From positions 1-36,011 of the forward strand of contig CACZKE010000028.1 of NCBI GenBank assembly GCA_902781705.1: a stretch of 36,011 nucleotides of DNA, in the 5' to 3' direction. The notes beneath the pieces are model-generated. The model had not been told where the DNA came from, did not search any database, and saw only the letters and a program-made list of their open reading frames with translations. The DNA is from an uncultured Bacteroidia bacterium. Its GTDB lineage: Bacteria; Bacteroidota; Bacteroidia; Bacteroidales; UBA932. Each line of letters begins with the position of its first letter. The stretch's first letter is position 1. Positions 25,701 through 32,579 of the stretch are shown one piece after another. The position numbers and the translations under genes were made by a program.

Positions 25701-25742
25701 AAGCTCGACCTGAACAAGGGTACGCTGACCCTCACCAAGTAA
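22707..25742 (+). CDS. Giant SusE/SusF-like multi-module starch-binding lipoprotein
   Basis: The product has 1011 residues, more than twice classical SusE or SusF. The ATG at 22707 starts an SPII signal (MKRFASIILTGAALLLGLVSC, then MKDED). Residues 22-155 form a SusE-type N-terminal domain. Then follow at least eight Ig-like glycan-binding modules, each opening with a form of hydrophobic-IGsFNxWggd: three nearly identical units of 112 residues starting at about 157, 269 and 381, then divergent ones near 503, 622, 727, 827 and 926. The conserved Trp (SFNSWGGD) and KFRKDxxWDVNFGY are likely ligand-contact regions, by analogy with SusE/F. A PEPKPKPK linker precedes module four. It should sit on the cell surface and hold starch for the amylase. 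Confidence 0.88.
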   Translation: MKRFASIILTGAALLLGLVSCMKDEDRAIFDPSQCTAPVLVGYSVVDGAVSAEYTPAVLNTNPKILNHMLAIVSLDGKPVSKRVNATDKDGVLTVSSTNLTRALQELGCEEGTMHSLEMAIRASNLKTPDDQNSGSFIESLGHIIIDGYEIILPSGDPYARYTQKSDWGLIGSFNGWGGDYEMWSNGTLHVAKAVELEAGAEVKFRKDGAWDVNFGYAEGVSSYTLGEEFEVAQGGSNIVIAEAGTYDFILDPENATAKIIKSVVPQEDPYAAYTEESPWSVIGSFNSWGGDVEMVTNGTLHVCKNITLAAGDEFKFRKDAGWDVNFGYAEGVESYVLGEDFSVAQGGGNIVIAEDGAYDLFLDPENATAKIIKTQAVVIDPYAAYTETSPWSVIGSFNSWGGDVEMVTNGTLHVCKAIPFNAGDEWKFRKDAGWDVNFGYAEGVDSYTLGEEFAVAQNGGNIVVAEDGVYDLILDPENATATVIKSVAPDAGETPEPKPKPKAWSVIGTLEDSGWEKDYDLQNVSGDVWTIKNLFVREQDEFKIRADHDWAKSYGGPEENAESTYEAGNVYGVYQPVLGQAFAAGGKNIRIGVEGNYNITLTYGDEPTILIEEYREFPEHLYMTGTDFGDWSWGEGTVELWPVINKPDWDEGKAADGQFYTIRYFTTNGFKFNGAKAWDGGQFGSLETNKGFTNDNDGNVVVPEEGFYLVHIDLKNSILNVEPARVYGIGDAFGSWDSAVADNRFTADGRVMKVTAPKGGKLRMYVESDIATTSWWTREFNLIDGQIVPRVLDELAAPDILAGQVVTLNFNEGTGTITGEGEAPAYKTEISVPGAYSGSEWNLDTAPKLLGKGDGEFKGALVMYKQGDAAVEFKFGHDGSWIGGTADGLNYTLGANDNMTIDEGTYFWTVNLESKTATALKVEKVGLIGSFNEWSDDVVLTFNAEDHTYNGTVTLGENAELKVRFNGNWDYSLGGDLNRLQAVNDNCKVAEAGTYTAKLDLNKGTLTLTK
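23175..24182 (+). repeat. Three 336-bp in-frame tandem repeats in the SusE/F-like gene
   Basis: Unit starts at 23175, 23511 and 23847 are exactly 336 bp apart (112 codons), each opening with GACCCGTAYGCC. Units two and three are almost identical at the DNA level over long stretches (from 23540 and 23876 on), while unit one differs more, so the last duplication is the youngest. Such an array can expand or contract by recombination. Confidence 0.85.
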
Positions 25743-25750
25743 TTTTTTCG

Positions 25751-25778
25751 GGCCGGGGCCTCTGACCGGACCCCGGCC
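25751..25778 (+). other. Strong GC hairpin between the SusE/F-like gene and the amylase gene
   Basis: GGCCGGGG (25751-25758) pairs perfectly with CCCCGGCC (25771-25778) around a 12-nt loop. It fills the 61-bp gap within the operon. It is preceded, not followed, by a T-run on the plus strand, so it does not look like an intrinsic terminator. It may protect the upstream mRNA part or lower expression downstream; this is inference. Confidence 0.6.
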
Positions 25779-25803
25779 TGCCAATTTTCAATCCGACAGC
25801 CTG

Positions 25804-28095
25804 ATGAACCGGAAACTGATCTCCATCCTGCCCCTTTTGGCGGCCCTTTTCCTGACTTTCTCCTGCGACCCGACGAAGAACAAGCAGGAACCCCAGGACA
25901 CCCTGACGGTGAATCCCGCCTCCATCGCTTTCGAGGCTGTGGATGCCTCGACCAAGCTTGTGTACGTCACTACCGAGAAGGACTGGACGGCCACGACTTC
26001 CGACACCTGGATCCATCTGGGAAAGACCTCCGGTACTGGCAAGGGTAACCTCGATGTGACGGTCGATGACAACCTGGGTGAAGACCGCACCGGGTCGATC
26101 ACCGTCAAGGGCTCGAATACCGAGACGGTCGCCGTATCTCAGAAGGGCAAGCATGTCATTACGGTCGTGGCGAACCCCGACAGCTTCGACGGCAACAAGC
26201 GCTCTTCCACGACCTACCAGCTCCTCATCTATTCCTTCGCCGACAGTGACGGCGACGGAATCGGCGACTTCAAGGGCATCCAGAACAAGCTGGACTACCT
26301 GGACGGCCTGGGCGTGACGGGTATCTGGCTGTCGCCGGCGCACCCCACGAATTCTTATCACGGGTATGATGTCAATGACTACAATGCCCTGAATCCGCTT
26401 TTCGGCACGGAAGCCGATTTCAGGAATCTGATCGTCGCCGCACACGCCAAAGGCATCAAGATTTATATGGACTACGTCCTCAACCACAGCGGCACAGGCA
26501 CGGAATGGTTCAAGAGCGTGAAGGCCGACCCTAAGAACAGTCCATATAGGGATTATTACGTACTATCCAACGGCGATTATCCTCTTGAAGCCGTCGGTGG
26601 CATGGGTGGTTGGGTTTCCTTGGGAGACGGCAATATCGGTTATAAGGGCCGCCTGCATTTCAAGGTGGACTGGACGGGCAATACCAAGTACGTGACCGTG
26701 ACGGAAACCACAGAGGCGGTAACGGCCCCCAATTCTTCCAATGCCAAGCGTTGGATTCACGTGGGCAGCAAGGGCAGTCTGGGGATGCATGAAACGTCTA
26801 CCAATATCTTTGAACTCACGTTGGATGTGGATACCGAATGGGGCTTCCTGGTGCGCACCTCCAACGATGATTCCTGGCCCGTGGGCACCAAATACGGAGG
26901 AAAGACCGGTGCTAATGTCATTACGTTAGGCAAACCCTTCCCGCTGGACAACAGCACGGCGGCCGATATCGTTTTTGGCGAAAGTACCTCATATTATGCG
27001 AGCTTCGACGCCAGTATGCCGGACTTGAACTACGGAAAGCCTGACGAGTGCGAGAACTCCGGCGCGTTCCAGTCCACCGTGGAATCGGCCAGAAAATGGG
27101 TGGATATGGGTGTGGACGGATTCCGTCTGGATGCGGTGGTATGGATTTATGCGGCATCTGCCAGCGCCAATGCCAAATTCCTGGACAAGTGGTACAATGC
27201 GGTGAACGAGGCTTACAGAGCCACCCATTCGGACGACATCTTCATGGTGGGCGAGGCTTGGCATGGCGGGCACGGTGAGGAGAAGAAGTACTATGCCGGC
27301 CTTCCTTCCAATTTCGAGTTTGATTACTGGAGAAATGCGCTGCTGCCTGCCATCAATAACGGAAAAGGAAGCACCTATGCTTCAACGGTTATCGGCTATA
27401 TCTCAGATCATGAAGGAAAGCGTTTGACCAGTCCCAAGGCCGTCACCTCTTTCTTCATGACCAACCACGACAAGTCCAGCGTGAAAGCCAAGCAGAATCC
27501 GTACAACGACAACGAATGGCTTTCTTTCTACCGTGCCGCAGACGACTTGAACAGGAATCTGAACAAGGAAAAACAAGCTTGTGCCATGCTCCTCACCACC
27601 CCAGGAAAACCTTTCGTCTATCAGGGAGAAGAGCTGGGCTATTGGAGAATTGATGATAATGACAAGCTGGACGACGAGTACATACGCGCACCCATTGTGT
27701 GGAATTCTTCCGCTACGGACTGTGCCAAGAAGGGCGTCAACAACCGGGTAGACAACAACATGCTAAAGGGTTCCATCTCGGTGGAAACCCAGTCGGCCGA
27801 AGAGAACAGCCTTCTGAATACCTACAAGACTTGGATCCGCCTGCGGAACATCTATCCCGCCCTCGCCGAAGGCACGATGACCGATGCCTCCCTGGGGGGC
27901 GGCAATACCATCGCCGCCTGGTACATGACCGCCGGCAGCCAGAAGCTCCTCGTGATCCACAATACCGCTACCTCGGCGAAGGATGTCACGGTCAAGGACG
28001 ACATGTCCCGTGCGGTCGGCCTCCTCGGTACGGCGACGATCGACCACGACGTGCTCACCCTCGGTCCGAACTCCTCCGTGGTCTTCAAACTGTAG
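25804..28095 (+). CDS. susG: BACON-GH13 alpha-amylase, SusG-like surface lipoprotein
   Basis: The 763-residue protein has an SPII signal (MNRKLISILPLLAALFLTFSC), then a BACON domain (about 34-118, LTVNPASIAFEAVDASTKLVYV through VAVSQKGK), then the GH13 barrel. GH13 regions are visible: YMDYVLNHSG, nucleophile D443 in GFRLDAV, acid/base E484 in MVGEAWHG and D556 in FFMTNHD. About 140 residues (256-398) are inserted in the B-domain region (GRLHFKVDWTGNTKYVTVTE through NDDSWPVG), where SusG carries CBM58. The C-terminal beta domain ends SSVVFKL. It should cut starch outside the cell. GC content drops clearly in the middle of the gene. Confidence 0.93.
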   Translation: MNRKLISILPLLAALFLTFSCDPTKNKQEPQDTLTVNPASIAFEAVDASTKLVYVTTEKDWTATTSDTWIHLGKTSGTGKGNLDVTVDDNLGEDRTGSITVKGSNTETVAVSQKGKHVITVVANPDSFDGNKRSSTTYQLLIYSFADSDGDGIGDFKGIQNKLDYLDGLGVTGIWLSPAHPTNSYHGYDVNDYNALNPLFGTEADFRNLIVAAHAKGIKIYMDYVLNHSGTGTEWFKSVKADPKNSPYRDYYVLSNGDYPLEAVGGMGGWVSLGDGNIGYKGRLHFKVDWTGNTKYVTVTETTEAVTAPNSSNAKRWIHVGSKGSLGMHETSTNIFELTLDVDTEWGFLVRTSNDDSWPVGTKYGGKTGANVITLGKPFPLDNSTAADIVFGESTSYYASFDASMPDLNYGKPDECENSGAFQSTVESARKWVDMGVDGFRLDAVVWIYAASASANAKFLDKWYNAVNEAYRATHSDDIFMVGEAWHGGHGEEKKYYAGLPSNFEFDYWRNALLPAINNGKGSTYASTVIGYISDHEGKRLTSPKAVTSFFMTNHDKSSVKAKQNPYNDNEWLSFYRAADDLNRNLNKEKQACAMLLTTPGKPFVYQGEELGYWRIDDNDKLDDEYIRAPIVWNSSATDCAKKGVNNRVDNNMLKGSISVETQSAEENSLLNTYKTWIRLRNIYPALAEGTMTDASLGGGNTIAAWYMTAGSQKLLVIHNTATSAKDVTVKDDMSRAVGLLGTATIDHDVLTLGPNSSVVFKL

Positions 28096-28102
28096 TCCCT
28101 TT

Positions 28103-29260
28103 ATGAAGAAACTGATTTGGCTGGCGGCATTCCTGGCGGTATGCTCCTGCGGCGGGAAACTGGTCGATCCTGACCCGCCGACGCCGGATCCGACCCCGTC
28201 CGTTGTGGAGACCCCTTCCTTCGCCAAAGGCGCGGACATCAGCTGGGCCTCCGAGATGGAGGCCGGCGGGCGCACGTTCCGGAAGAAAGACGGGACGTCC
28301 GCTCCCTTGCTGGACGTGCTTCGCGAGGGGGGCTTCAACGCCATCCGCCTCCGTGTATGGGTAGACCCGTACAAAGGCTGGAGCGGTCCGGCAGACGTGG
28401 AGGCCGTTGCGAAAAAGGTCTCCGCGGCCGGTCTGGCCCTGATGGTGGACTTCCATTACAGCGATTTCTTCGCCGACCCTTCCCGGCAGAAGGCCCCGTC
28501 GGCCTGGGAAAAGGACAAGGCCGATGCCGACAAGGTGGCCGCCCTGGTCACCACCCATACCCGGGAAGTGCTCCAAGCCTTGAAGGCGGCGGGCGTGACG
28601 GTCAACTGGGTCCAGATCGGGAACGAGACCCGGGGAGGGATGGTCTATCCGGCCGGCCAGCTGAATTACGACAACAAGGGGAAGGAGTTCCAGGGTTTCG
28701 TGAAACTCTTCAACGCCGGATACGCCGCCGCGAAGGCGGTCTATCCTTCCGCCTTGGTGATGCCGCACCTGAACAACGCCTTCGATTCCCCGTCCAATAC
28801 CTGGTGGCTCTCCAATTTCAAGAGCCAGGGCGGCAAGTTCGACGCCATCGCCCTTTCCCATTATCCGCATTACGGGGGCAAACTCTGGATCGGCGGGAAG
28901 GAGACGGTCCTTACGCCCGCCCAGGTCAACCAGTATGCCCTGCAGGACATCACGGACCTGGCCGATACCTTCAAGGTCCCGGTCATCGTGTCGGAGGTGG
29001 GCGTGAATCCGAAACAAAGCGATGCGGCGTCCATCCTCTCCTCCTTCCTGACCGACTCCCGCAAGATTTCCGCCTGCAAGGGCGTGTTCTACTGGGAACC
29101 CGAAGTGGACGGGAACTGGAAACCCGCCCTCTATTCGGACCTTGCCGCCCTGACCCGGTACAGCGGCAGCACCCAGACCCGTGCCTGGAACGCCTACGAC
29201 CAGGGAGCTTTTACCGCTTCCGGTTCCCCGTCCGCCATCCTGGACTGTTTCGGGGAGTGA
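28103..29260 (+). CDS. GH53 endo-beta-1,4-galactanase lipoprotein
   Basis: The 385-residue protein has an SPII signal (MKKLIWLAAFLAVCSC) and a Pro/Asp-rich linker (DPDPPTPDPTPS). The GH53 barrel shows family marks: FAKGADISWASEMEAGG, NAIRLRVWVDPYKGW, LMVDFHYSDFFADPSRQ, acid/base E175 in QIGNE and nucleophile E298 in VSEVG. GH53 enzymes cut beta-1,4-galactan side chains of pectin. It begins 7 bp after the amylase gene, so it is cotranscribed with a starch machinery, which is unexpected. The start is fixed by the signal peptide; the frame upstream is antiparallel-like noise inside the amylase gene. Confidence 0.93.
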   Translation: MKKLIWLAAFLAVCSCGGKLVDPDPPTPDPTPSVVETPSFAKGADISWASEMEAGGRTFRKKDGTSAPLLDVLREGGFNAIRLRVWVDPYKGWSGPADVEAVAKKVSAAGLALMVDFHYSDFFADPSRQKAPSAWEKDKADADKVAALVTTHTREVLQALKAAGVTVNWVQIGNETRGGMVYPAGQLNYDNKGKEFQGFVKLFNAGYAAAKAVYPSALVMPHLNNAFDSPSNTWWLSNFKSQGGKFDAIALSHYPHYGGKLWIGGKETVLTPAQVNQYALQDITDLADTFKVPVIVSEVGVNPKQSDAASILSSFLTDSRKISACKGVFYWEPEVDGNWKPALYSDLAALTRYSGSTQTRAWNAYDQGAFTASGSPSAILDCFGE

Positions 29261-29293
29261 TCCGGGCTGTAGACCGCAAACATTGATCCTGCC

Positions 29294-31294
29294 GTGAAAA
29301 GAATCGCCATCCTGGCATGCATCCTCCTGGCGGGAGCCTGCTGCCCCAAAAACCATGTTTCCTCGCCAGACGGGCGGATTTCCGTCCGGTTCTCGGTGGA
29401 TGCCGACGGTGTCCCCACCTATGCCGTGGACGTCGACGGAGAGCCCTTCCTGGAGTCCTCCGCGATGGGCTTGTTTTCCGATGACGTGAACCTGGACCGG
29501 GGCTTCAAGCTCAAGTCTTCCCGGGTCAAAAGCCGCCGGGAGACCTGGCATCAGCCCTGGGGCGAGAACAAGGAGGTGGTGGACAGCCACAAGGAACTCG
29601 CCCTCAGACTGAAGAATGACGCCGGGGTGGGCCTGGAGGTCGTTTTCCGCGTGTTTGACGACGGGTTCGGCTTCCGGTACGCCTATGAGGTCCCGGGCGC
29701 CGACACGCTCCGCATCCACGGCGAGCGGACGCAGTTCGCCTTCGCCGCCGATGCCGACACCTGGTCCATCCCGGGCGATTTCAACTCCTACGAGCACCTG
29801 TACCGCAAGATGCGGCTGTCGGAGCTCCGCAATGCGAATACGCCGCTGACGCTCAAGTTCTCCGACAGCCTGTACGCCGCGGTCCATGAGGCGGCGCTGG
29901 TCGATTTCCCCGAGATGGTGTTGCGCAACGACTTCGGCCTGACCTTCCAGGCGTCGCTCGCTCCGCTTCTGGTGGATGCGAAGGACATCAAGGCGCTGGT
30001 CTCCGGTTCCTTCCAGACCCCCTGGCGGACGGTCCAGATCGCCCGTTCCGCCGTGGGCCTCATCAACTCTTCCCTCATCCTGAACCTCAACGAACCCTGC
30101 GCCCTGGCGGATGTCTCCTGGATCAAGCCCATGAAATATATCGGCGTTTGGTGGAGCCTGCACCTGGGCGTGGAATCCTGGGGCGGGGAAGGCCACGGCG
30201 CGACGACGGAGAATGCGATGCGGTATATCGACTTTGCCGCCGCCAACAATATTCAGGGTGTTCTGTTCGAGGGTTGGAACGACTCCTGGCGGGGCTCCGA
30301 CGCCCTTCCCGATTTTGATTTCACCCGGGCCGCCCCTGACTACGACGTAGAGAAAGTGGCTGCTTACGCCCGTTCCAAGGGCGTGGCGCTGATTACCCAT
30401 AACGAGACCGGCGGCAATTACCTGCGGTTCGAGGAGCAGTTGGAGCGTACGTTGGACTGGGATGCTTCATTGGGCATCCATGCCATGAAGACCGGTTATG
30501 CCGGCGGTGGCCTGTCCGGCGGCGCACCGCGGCATAGCCAGACCGGTGTCCGGCATTTCCAGAAAGTCGTCGAGGAAGCCGCGGAACGCCAGATCATGGT
30601 CGACGGTCACGAGGTTATCAAGGCCACCGGCCTCCGGCGTACCTGGCCCAACTTCATGACCCGCGAGTGCGTCCGGGGCATGGAATACAATGGCTGGGGC
30701 CCCGGCAATCCGCCTTCCCACACGGTCATCCTCCCTTACACCCGGCTGCTGGGCGGTCCGGTGGACTATACGCCGGGCGTGTTTGACATCCGGTACACCT
30801 GCGTCGAGGGCAAGCCGCAACTCCGTACCTGGGGCCGTCCCAGTTCCGAGTGCAGCGAGCATACGACCCTGGCGAAACAGATGGCGAACTGGGTGGTCCT
30901 ATATTCGCCCATGCAGATGGCCTGCGACCTGTTGGAAAACTACGAGGGACATCCCGCCTTCCAGTTCTTCCGCGACTTCGATGCCGACTGCGATGCCTCC
31001 GAAGCCCTGCAGGGCGAGGTGGGCGAGTGGATTTCCATCGTCCGCCGTGCCGGGGACCGCTTCTTCCTGGGCGCCACGACCGACGAGACCGGCCGCAGTT
31101 TCGACCAGCCGCTGACCTTCCTGCGTCCGGGTGTCCGCTATACGGCTACGGTTTACGGCGATGCCCCCGATGCGCATTGGGAATCGAATCCCACCGCCTA
31201 CGAAATCACGACCCGGTCCGTCACTTGCGAGGACACGCTCTCCCTCTGCCTCGCACCCGGTGGCGGCGCGGCCGTGTCATTCCTCCCGGAATAG
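29294..31294 (+). CDS. susB: GH97 alpha-glucosidase lipoprotein, SusB-like
   Basis: The 666-residue protein starts at GTG 29294 (no nearby ATG) with an SPII-type signal (KRIAILACILLAGAC, then CPKN). The GH97 layout is complete: N-terminal beta-sandwich (SSPDGRISVRFSVD; MGLFSDDVNLDRGF), TIM barrel (MKYIGVWWSLHLG; QGVLFEGWNDSW) and C-terminal beta domain. Candidate catalytic glutamates E371 (HNETGG), E440 (DGHEVIK) and E464 (GMEYNGW) are spaced 69 and 24 residues, the same as Glu439, Glu508 and Glu532 of SusB as I recall them. The slot of the nucleophile Asp of retaining GH97 enzymes appears to read KTGYAGG. An inverting alpha-glucosidase releasing glucose from malto-oligosaccharides is therefore likely. 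It closes the operon. Confidence 0.94.
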   Translation: MKRIAILACILLAGACCPKNHVSSPDGRISVRFSVDADGVPTYAVDVDGEPFLESSAMGLFSDDVNLDRGFKLKSSRVKSRRETWHQPWGENKEVVDSHKELALRLKNDAGVGLEVVFRVFDDGFGFRYAYEVPGADTLRIHGERTQFAFAADADTWSIPGDFNSYEHLYRKMRLSELRNANTPLTLKFSDSLYAAVHEAALVDFPEMVLRNDFGLTFQASLAPLLVDAKDIKALVSGSFQTPWRTVQIARSAVGLINSSLILNLNEPCALADVSWIKPMKYIGVWWSLHLGVESWGGEGHGATTENAMRYIDFAAANNIQGVLFEGWNDSWRGSDALPDFDFTRAAPDYDVEKVAAYARSKGVALITHNETGGNYLRFEEQLERTLDWDASLGIHAMKTGYAGGGLSGGAPRHSQTGVRHFQKVVEEAAERQIMVDGHEVIKATGLRRTWPNFMTRECVRGMEYNGWGPGNPPSHTVILPYTRLLGGPVDYTPGVFDIRYTCVEGKPQLRTWGRPSSECSEHTTLAKQMANWVVLYSPMQMACDLLENYEGHPAFQFFRDFDADCDASEALQGEVGEWISIVRRAGDRFFLGATTDETGRSFDQPLTFLRPGVRYTATVYGDAPDAHWESNPTAYEITTRSVTCEDTLSLCLAPGGGAAVSFLPE

Positions 31295-31307: not shown

Positions 31308-31415
31308 CGAAACCTATGTGACAAAATCGTCCTCTGGTTCGCTGAATCGTTGCATACCCTGCCTTCCGAGGTGGGGTATGTGACGTTTTAGGATGCAGGG
31401 ACTCGATTTTGTTAC
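31308..31415. repeat. REP-like palindromic element, copy 1
   Basis: Positions 31308-31388 match 32433-32513 in the same orientation with 6 mismatches in 81 bp; the last 46 bp are identical. The core is an imperfect hairpin, CATACCC...GGGTATG, with an inner CCT-TCCG-AGG stem-loop. Outer arms TGTGACAAAATCG (31317-31329) and CGATTTTGTTACA (31403-31415) are inverted, with one mismatch. It lies 13 bp after the GH97 stop codon and may also act as transcript end for the Sus operon. Confidence 0.85.
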
Positions 31416-31510
31416 AGTCGATTGGGTTGACTGATTCTGTTTTCAGATTTTTATCGTAAATCTTTCGGTAAAAAATGCTGTTATACGCCGTGGAAGCCTG
31501 TTTTTGCTGT

Positions 31511-31541
31511 TTATCCGTCTGCATTTTGCTTAGACGGATAA
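31511..31541 (+). promoter_or_regulatory. Perfect 10-bp hairpin upstream of the REP transposase
   Basis: TTATCCGTCT (31511-31520) and AGACGGATAA (31532-31541) pair perfectly over an 11-nt loop. The hairpin ends 31 bp before the ATG at 31573 and directly abuts the possible TTG start at 31543. It could limit expression of the transposase or be part of its recognition system. Confidence 0.5.
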
Positions 31542-31572
31542 GTTGTCATACCTTCGTCGAAAACGGTTGGTT

Positions 31573-32409
31573 ATGGCGATATGGCATGTATATTCGGACG
31601 GGACACGGGCGGACATTCCCTTCAATACGGAGGAGGACAAAGTATTTGGGTGGAACAGTGTGGCCGTTTGTGCAGAGATTGCCGGTGTGCGGGTATGGGT
31701 GGTTACCGTGAATGATACGCACTTCCATTCACTGGTTTGCGGGGAAGAGGAGTTGGCTGAGCGTTATCGGGGTGTTCTTCAGCAGCGCCTTCAACGACGT
31801 TTCCCGGAAGAGAATATCTATATTGCCAGAGACGAGGTGGAGTCCAGGGAAGAAATCATGCGGAAGTTCATGTATGTGTATCGGAACTGTCTTGATTTCT
31901 ACAAGAATCTTCCTGGAGAGTATCCCTGGGGTTCCGGAAATATATATTTTTCCGAGAAACGGCATTTTTTTGAAGGAAAAAGAATCGGGGCTCTTCCGGT
32001 CCGTGAGTATAACAGGATGTTCAAGACCCATGTGCGGCTTCCGGATCACTGGCTGTACGATGGGGAAGGACGGATCCTTCCGGAGTGCTTCATCGACTTC
32101 GAGGCCGTGGAACGGCATTTCGGGAGTGTCAAGGCATTCATTGCCTTTCAGTTCGTAAAGAAAGAGGACGAAGCGGCGATGAAACAGCAGATCCACCGGC
32201 GATACGTGGAATCCCGGACCATCCAGGATCTGAGGCGTATCGGAAGCAAGTATTGTTCCGACCTGTGCCGGATGTCGTTGAAGACGGCACCGTTCGAGAT
32301 TCGTCTGAAAGTGGCGGTCAAAATGATCGGGAAGGGCGTCTCGGGGCGGTCGGCGTCCTTGGCGAAAGCCTTGTTCCTCCGGCCGGAAGACCTGAACCGA
32401 TTAGTCTGA
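31573..32409 (+). CDS. REP-associated tyrosine transposase (RAYT, HUH/Y1 type)
   Basis: The product has 278 residues from the ATG at 31573; a TTG at 31543 would add ten. The HUH metal site is THFHSL in VVTVNDTHFHSLVCG. The catalytic tyrosine is in KFMYVYRN, followed by the RAYT signature PGEYPWGSGNIYF. A C-terminal helical part (TIQDLRRIGSKYCSDLCRMS) may be a helix-turn-helix for hairpin recognition. Base composition is clearly lower in GC than in flanking genes, a sign of transfer. It is bracketed by two direct copies of a palindromic element, the arrangement of a REPtron. Such enzymes cut and join single-stranded DNA at REP hairpins. It appears intact. Confidence 0.88.
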   Translation: MAIWHVYSDGTRADIPFNTEEDKVFGWNSVAVCAEIAGVRVWVVTVNDTHFHSLVCGEEELAERYRGVLQQRLQRRFPEENIYIARDEVESREEIMRKFMYVYRNCLDFYKNLPGEYPWGSGNIYFSEKRHFFEGKRIGALPVREYNRMFKTHVRLPDHWLYDGEGRILPECFIDFEAVERHFGSVKAFIAFQFVKKEDEAAMKQQIHRRYVESRTIQDLRRIGSKYCSDLCRMSLKTAPFEIRLKVAVKMIGKGVSGRSASLAKALFLRPEDLNRLV

Positions 32410-32432
32410 CGGGCCCTTCACGGGGGTGCCTC

Positions 32433-32546
32433 CGAAACCTATGTAACAAAGTCGGCCTTTGGTGCACTGAATCGTTGCATACCCTGCCTTCCGAGGTGGG
32501 GTATGTGACGTTTGGGAGCAGGAACAAAGGTTTTTGTCACATACCT
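32433..32546. repeat. REP-like palindromic element, copy 2
   Basis: Positions 32433-32513 are the direct second copy of the 81-bp unit. The outer arm TGTAACAAAG (from 32442) is partly inverted in TTTTTGTCACATACC (32531-32545). The latter also pairs with GGTATGTGAC (32500-32509), giving a 10-bp inverted repeat not present in this form in copy 1. It starts 23 bp after the transposase stop codon. Confidence 0.85.
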
Positions 32547-32579
32547 TTCGGCAGCCGGCGGGAGAAAGCAAATAATTCG

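Follow-up and report, generated by a model that had tools for sequence, protein, structure and literature searches.

Does a gene for an HUH/Y1-type single-strand nuclease, lying between two direct copies of a hairpin-forming repeat, make up an enzyme–element pair with that repeat, and how does such a pair compare with the RAYT/REP systems? The question is raised by one locus in the window, i.e., the whole stretch of 36,011 nucleotides analyzed here, which an earlier note had read as a self-contained REPtron. Cleavage by TnpAREP enzymes takes place in single-stranded REPs, close to the hairpin; the tnpAREP genes are mostly single-copy, with REPs distributed genome-wide (PMC8266576). The recognition study in that paper used enzymes from E. 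coli, S. maltophilia and Marinomonas. RAYTs are described as single-copy, vertically inherited genes in PMC8049555. The subdivision of the TnpAY1 enzymes into subclasses (Quentin et al., 2018; PMC6006769) includes a Bacteroidetes subclass 2.6 with 'atypical secondary structures' and a subclass 2.1 with C-terminal HTH domains, for which that paper reports no REPs. TIRYTs with non-GTAG repeats have also been described, in Koribacter as three genes with three different TIRs (De Nocera et al., 2013; PMC3733652).

We consider it likely that the RAYT-type HUH/Y1 enzyme of the window and the two 118-bp dyads around it, as its cognate element, constitute a REPtron-like pair. The architecture of the locus, the gene-specific flank pairs across the enzyme family and the low copy number of the element are direct observations. 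About 14 such enzymes exist side by side in this genome, and the feature is more interesting at the genus level than as a single locus, its striking aspects being the number of genes and the low element copy number.

The enzyme and the dyads beside it

The features of the locus are collected in Table 1. The motifs named in the earlier note (THFH, MYVYRN and PGEYPWGS) are present in frame in the RAYT-like gene, for which an alternative TTG start at 31543 is possible. In the alignment of 22 family proteins, His50, Tyr101 and Asn105 are invariant and His52 is retained in at least 90%. Searched alone, the window protein has no Pfam, NCBIfam or PDB-sequence match at E<=1; at E<=0.01, NF047646 ('REP-associated tyrosine transposase') is matched by 14 and PF01797 (Y1_Tnp) by 8 of the 22 aligned family members, the window member being among neither. 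The RAYT identity that had been claimed from motifs only is not borne out by a model match of the protein itself; it stands through membership in a family to which the model matches of its relatives assign it. The best PDB sequence matches of the family profile are the transposase chains 2xo6, 2xm3 and 2xma (E 0.0064–0.0066), which span profile positions 43–86, that is, the HUH region, and which we take to be the ISDra2 enzyme.

Table 1. Coordinates of the features of the locus within the window
Feature	Positions	Strand	Basis or remark
Predicted HUH/Y1 single-strand nuclease gene, RAYT type	31573..32409	+	278 aa from ATG
HUH motif His-Phe-His, residues 50–52	31720..31728	+	alignment, 22 family proteins
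Presumed catalytic Tyr101 and Asn105 (YxxxN)	31873..31887	+	alignment, 22 family proteins
Predicted C-terminal helical region, resembling helix-turn-helix	32293..32406	+	structure model
Upstream 118-bp dyad copy	31308..31425	+	81-bp repeat, ungapped frame, long-hairpin fold
Downstream 118-bp dyad copy	32433..32550	+	81-bp repeat, ungapped frame, long-hairpin fold
Central 17-bp hairpin, TCCG loop, upstream copy	31348..31385	+	fold, pair counts across 5 copies
Central 17-bp hairpin, TCCG loop, downstream copy	32473..32510	+	fold

The AlphaFold model (window protein plus one relative) is poor (pLDDT 52.7, pTM 0.36) and usable only for the helical C-terminus, where helices are predicted at residues 241–253, 261–266 and 271–277, with ten-residue blocks at pLDDT 79–93; a Foldseek fold search with this model gave no meaningful match. 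An HTH model (HTH_PafC, E 0.0085) is matched by one of the 22 family members. The enzyme's relatives in other genomes are under purifying selection, with dN/dS of 0.05–0.13 in four pairs; for the pair of the window gene and its homologue at locus L036, dS is unusable. The genome is GC-rich, as had been stated (59.9% in the window, 58.2% in a genome sample). Between 31426 and 32406, both the leader of the RAYT-like gene (38.8% GC) and the gene itself (52.5%) lie below the genome sample.

The two 81-bp direct repeats (31308–31388 and 32433–32513) are as the earlier note described them: 75 of the 81 positions agree (93%), and the last 46 bp are identical. Their TCCG-loop hairpin, with a 17-bp stem, also holds up; DNA folding of the 56-nt hairpin pieces yields z of -6.1 and -4.0, with no shuffle of 200 as stable in either case. 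A 118-bp dyad unit centred on this hairpin extends beyond the 81-bp repeat, which is its better-preserved portion. The unit has an imperfect outer inverted repeat, CGAAACCTATGT..ACATACCTTTCG, well kept downstream of the gene and decayed on the right-hand side of the upstream copy. The ends of the downstream copy define the 118-bp frame, which fits, ungapped, the upstream and downstream copies and a solo window-type copy on another contig of the same genome (L003, 1504–1621). Mirrored positions are complementary at 35, 37 and 36 of 59 (upstream, downstream and solo, respectively). Over the full frame, the upstream and downstream copies agree at 91 of 118 positions, hardly more than each does with the solo copy (88 and 89); thus, the strong similarity of the flank pair is limited to the first 81 bp. 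The 118-bp units fold with z of -6.4 upstream, -3.9 downstream and -3.3 for the solo copy (no shuffle of 200 reaching the same stability in any of the three), the flanking copies as one long hairpin and the solo copy with the central hairpin kept and the outer part branched.

When the three window-type copies are combined with two that a related MAG carries, pairing is seen in 84% of the stem cells. With the stem structure derived from one of these five sequences, two-sided change is seen in 12 of the 43 stem pairs, a count reached by 2 of 500 shuffles, with sliding giving at most 5; the other measures are weaker and were reached by 44 (cells paired), 24 (covariation score) and 68 (pair types) of 500 shuffles. 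The sequence GT[AG]G occurs in either window copy only at element position 64, inside the stem, and is absent from the hairpin foot in both; GGGGWSAS is absent from the window element. The flank pair scores 73 in direct vs 30 in inverted orientation, the lesser inverted match being that of dyads.

In a genome given as 98.97% complete, the window-type element occupies three places, two flanking and one solo, and is therefore not a high-copy REP. Cognate palindromes beside the gene and a copy elsewhere were thus found; a high genomic copy number, or the many intergenic copies that the earlier note had named as support, was not. The refuting outcome named in that note, no further copy in the genome, fails narrowly, by that one solo copy.

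The surroundings of the locus were compared through the peroxidase-like neighbour, with 37 genomes searched for it. A locus was available for some of the matches, and among the 29 relatives' loci examined (L139–L167, mostly 1.5 kb per side) no empty site corresponding to the window locus was seen. The peroxidase is present in 27 of these 29, and in none of them does a GH97-like, M20-like or RAYT neighbour lie beside it. The labels GH97-like, amylase-like, peroxidase-like, M20-like and radA-like are our reading of the sequences only. Genes that read as amylase and GH97 precede the RAYT gene at 25729–31294, perhaps as a starch-utilisation locus; at L036 (6.2 kb), an amylase-like homologue directly precedes the RAYT gene, and no clear GH97 match was seen. 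Four other loci (L047, L048, L056 and L168) have in common a radA-like gene with a RAYT-like gene next to it; the RAYT-like genes come from different branches, and in L047 and L048 they are oppositely oriented relative to the radA-like gene. This spot is a possible preferred site.

A family of enzymes, most with matching flanks

The earlier note had named a single RAYT gene as supporting evidence; at E<=0.01, the search of the own genome detected 14 family genes plus a C-terminal fragment, the members being mutually at most 48% identical. With the window protein as query, matches were obtained in 32 of 61 genomes, all of the same genus, and in none of 24 from other families. A profile search at E<=1e-10 detected the family in 86 of 150 genomes. 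The same genus accounts for 79 of these (91 searched) and other families of the order for 7 (59 searched), with weaker hits in the latter (E between 5e-11 and 2e-16). By the same search, the maximum per genome is at least 15 genes, and the matches summed over the 79 genomes having the family number at least about 500. The nearest named relative by gene is in the Bacteroidales MAG RGIG8438 (64% identical over the matched segment). This much of the earlier note's interpretation is supported: a RAYT-like gene between direct element copies, with a further copy elsewhere, in a GC-rich genome that has a Bacteroidales MAG as its nearest named relative by this gene.

The flanks of the family genes were assessed by the best local match between the 400 bp upstream and the 400 bp downstream of each gene, relative to a line of 17.58, the 99th percentile of 672 cross-gene comparisons. 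In the first set (60 distinct genes, four of which were dropped, leaving 56 with both flanks), the match lies above the line in 39 of 56 genes and 17 are without a pair; in a second set, drawn from other genomes, 12 of 20 genes lie above it and 8 do not, and 11 of 380 cross pairs of that set exceed the same line. Among the controls, one ordinary gene in 63 and 20 random intervals in 500 also pass, so that a few per cent of chance passes should be allowed for. Within the own genome, 12 of the 14 genes pass, two of them barely (scores 18 and 19 vs 17.58). The 39 passing pairs comprise 32 direct, 6 inverted and one tie; the median distance between the last sense codon and the start of the downstream match is 25 bp, and the elements of siblings differ in sequence (e.g., GAGGTGCACC, TTGAGGATGA and AAAGTACCCGGGA). 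One family gene (L054, G016:C4, around 197990) sits within long repeats of ~600 bp on both sides, with a flank score of 240.

Dyad symmetry was examined in 31 of the 35 direct pairs with a score >30, four being too short. It exceeds every one of 40 block shuffles made from the upstream region in 19 of 31 upstream and 16 of 31 downstream elements, and the best dyad centre agrees between the flanks in 17 of the 31 pairs. With these counts, global dyad symmetry as a universal rule was rejected.

The element types differ in the number and place of their copies. The C8 type has four copies around its gene and three solo; the C13 type has nine copies, all of exactly 108 bp under a search pattern that permitted 79–154, with a central hairpin and the end repeat CGTCGAATGGAA/TTCCATTCGACG (at most three substitutions per end). 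No target duplication was seen by eye at the nine C13-type copies, and the base before the element on the strand shown is C in eight of nine. Element length is constant in the two types measured, C13 and the window type. The downstream C16a query gives one strong and two weak matches, the upstream copy not being among them; the L182 type has two flanking copies and three weak matches; and for the L048 type, solo copies were undetected in two genomes, each with just the two flanking copies. When the flanks of the 14 genes served as queries against 400 kb sampled from the own genome, the C16a and C13 types gave solo copies, other hits being weaker (E 4e-4 to 0.005) and reversed queries giving one weak hit. 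Two weak C16a-type solos and the window-type solo lie within ~13 kb of each other on one contig (G000:C26 39403, 48743, 51800). At L037 (G000:C8 31745–32114), a sibling ORF reads on across a copy of its element; 291 bp beyond it, the 79 bp are found again without any difference, and a C-terminal gene fragment lies between both copies.

Alike enzymes tend to have alike elements. The 1540 pairs of family genes were grouped by protein identity, with a line for flank similarity of 19, set at the 99th percentile of the 1358 pairs of <35% identity. Pairs above the line number 7 of 8 where the identity is >=60%, 11 of 36 at 50–60%, 5 of 82 at 45–50%, 2 of 30 at 40–45%, 1 of 26 at 35–40%, none of 151 at 30–35% and 11 of 1207 in the class of <30%. 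For pairs that share no neighbours within loci of ~4 kb, the counts are 4 of 5 at >=60% and 7 of 29 at 50–60%. The window and L036 loci are partly syntenic, a homologous amylase-like gene preceding each, and hence this pair indicates descent rather than movement.

The two copies around a gene are often, albeit not always, closer to each other than to the elements of related genes. In nine homologous pairs (17 genes) chosen from the most similar ones, 12 genes have flanks of their own that are 0.79–0.96 identical over at least 80 columns, vs 0.62–0.80 between genes at that length; of the other five, L036 (0.67), L088 (0.66) and L051 (0.70) are lower, and L056 and L047 have short matches only. 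For the close species pair G023/G071, three loci are collinear and 89–92% identical (one locus 92%), and sites shared within the species vs conserved by position number 2:1, 6:6 and 0:15 at the three loci (totals 8 and 22); with these ratios, strict concerted evolution as a general rule was rejected. A fourth comparison, in another species pair (23:0), was set aside because the elements of the two species do not correspond. At the 6:6 locus (L222/L218), the hairpin loop is nearly the reverse complement between the species, as if flipped in both flanks.

Known systems, a possible mechanism and competing explanations

As in the RAYT/REPtron arrangement (PMC6006769), an HUH/Y1 enzyme is flanked by a palindrome, has its own element type and has copies elsewhere. 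In contrast to canonical REPs, which have GT[AG]G at the foot, the window element is without it, as is subclass 2.6; REPtrons have multiple dispersed copies whereas the window element has three; and the same paper distinguishes, in 12 species, up to four class 2 genes that belong to different subclasses, as against a maximum of at least 15 divergent genes per genome here. At 278 aa, the window protein is longer than what are apparently the mean lengths of subclass 2.6 (179 aa) and, for comparison with IS200/IS605, subclass 1.1 (152 aa) in Table 1 of PMC6006769. The TIRYT/TIRtron systems (PMC3733652), which probably correspond to subclass 2.1 in the terms of PMC6006769, share the non-GTAG repeats around the gene, some of them self-complementary and of moderate copy number, and the C-terminal HTH-like extensions of subclass 2.1 find a possible counterpart in the predicted helical C-terminus of the window protein and the single family member that matches an HTH model. 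However, TIRtron repeats are inverted, whereas those of the present family are mostly direct (32 of 38 untied pairs, the window pair included); GGGGWSAS, which many but not all TIRtron repeats contain, is missing from the window element; and the genes per genome are many more here. REPINs (Bertels and Rainey, 2011; PMC3116915) are likewise short one-hairpin dyads thought to be moved by RAYTs; by contrast, the present elements have single-digit copy numbers and no canonical REP at their ends. One element type per enzyme at modest copy number is, given PMC6006769 and PMC3733652, not new in principle. For the scale, the mostly direct dyads of constant length and the genus-wide statistical link, a limited search of the open literature returned no description.

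The arrangement of the locus is what would be expected of a TnpAREP-like enzyme that has its substrate on either side. If the enzyme and the dyads are a cognate pair, recognition, cleavage, copying or mobility and the likeness of the flanks could, as we infer from the sequences, be connected in the following manner. When the locus becomes single-stranded during replication or repair, the element would fold into its hairpin, on which the enzyme would dock, with His50 and His52 holding a metal; Tyr101 would then nick next to the hairpin, and strand transfer would move or copy the short element. Such transfer might rarely plant a solo copy elsewhere and, together with recombination, might tend to keep the two flanking copies alike. 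Single-strand transfer fits the dispersed copies in that they are constant in length and without target duplication.

With IS200/IS605, the locus shares a Y1 enzyme between same-strand hairpins and the lack of target duplication. An autonomous IS of this sort, with the hairpins as its ends, a mobile unit of 1.2 kb and solo copies as remnants, would be in keeping with the direct hairpins at both ends, the C13-type copies at which no duplication is seen, the GC content of the gene (52.5% vs 58–60% around it) and those gene pairs that have similar elements and share no neighbours in 4-kb loci. Yet no near-identical second unit exists in the genome (best identity 48%), three loci are collinear between two species at 89–92% identity, one orthologue is partly syntenic in the named MAG, and the ORFs next to the gene look, from their sequences, like other sorts of enzyme; we accordingly regard an IS as improbable. 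We are comparably doubtful that the palindromes are regulatory or terminator-like, bound by the protein or another factor, with an enzyme that does not move them and ordinary gene conversion keeping the two copies alike. The close spacing of the downstream matches to the gene end (median 25 bp) and the L048-type lineage, which keeps its flank pair without solo copies, favour this explanation, but the element also occurs far upstream and as solo copies elsewhere, and the HUH/Y core residues are kept in the family.

A coincidental local duplication, with gene and repeats functionally unlinked, could appeal to the mere three copies of the window element in the genome. Nevertheless, flank pairs accompany 39 of 56 and 12 of 20 family genes, compared with a single ordinary gene in 63 and 20 random intervals in 500, and elements tend to be alike where enzymes are alike. 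Since the majority of siblings are themselves flanked by a matching pair, a simple one-off duplication, which the earlier note had named as a possible refutation, explains the locus poorly, and we hold it to be highly improbable.

A different and, in our estimate, unlikely reading takes element–enzyme–element as the maintained unit, excised as a one-element circle and re-entering a solo element or scar. Were it true, re-entry would regenerate two matched direct flanks, and solo copies would be empty docking sites; cells of the genus would then carry about a dozen single-strand recombination systems that are blind to one another and whose enzyme–hairpin codes evolve separately.

The REPtron-like pairing that we favour bears on what RAYTs do for the host and how they choose their palindromes. 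With many divergent enzymes, most of those tested having matching flanks, the recognition code may become readable by covariation, and one cell would supply both cognate and non-cognate pairs for specificity tests. Furthermore, the family points to the persistence of enzyme–element pairs even where the element is present in very few copies.
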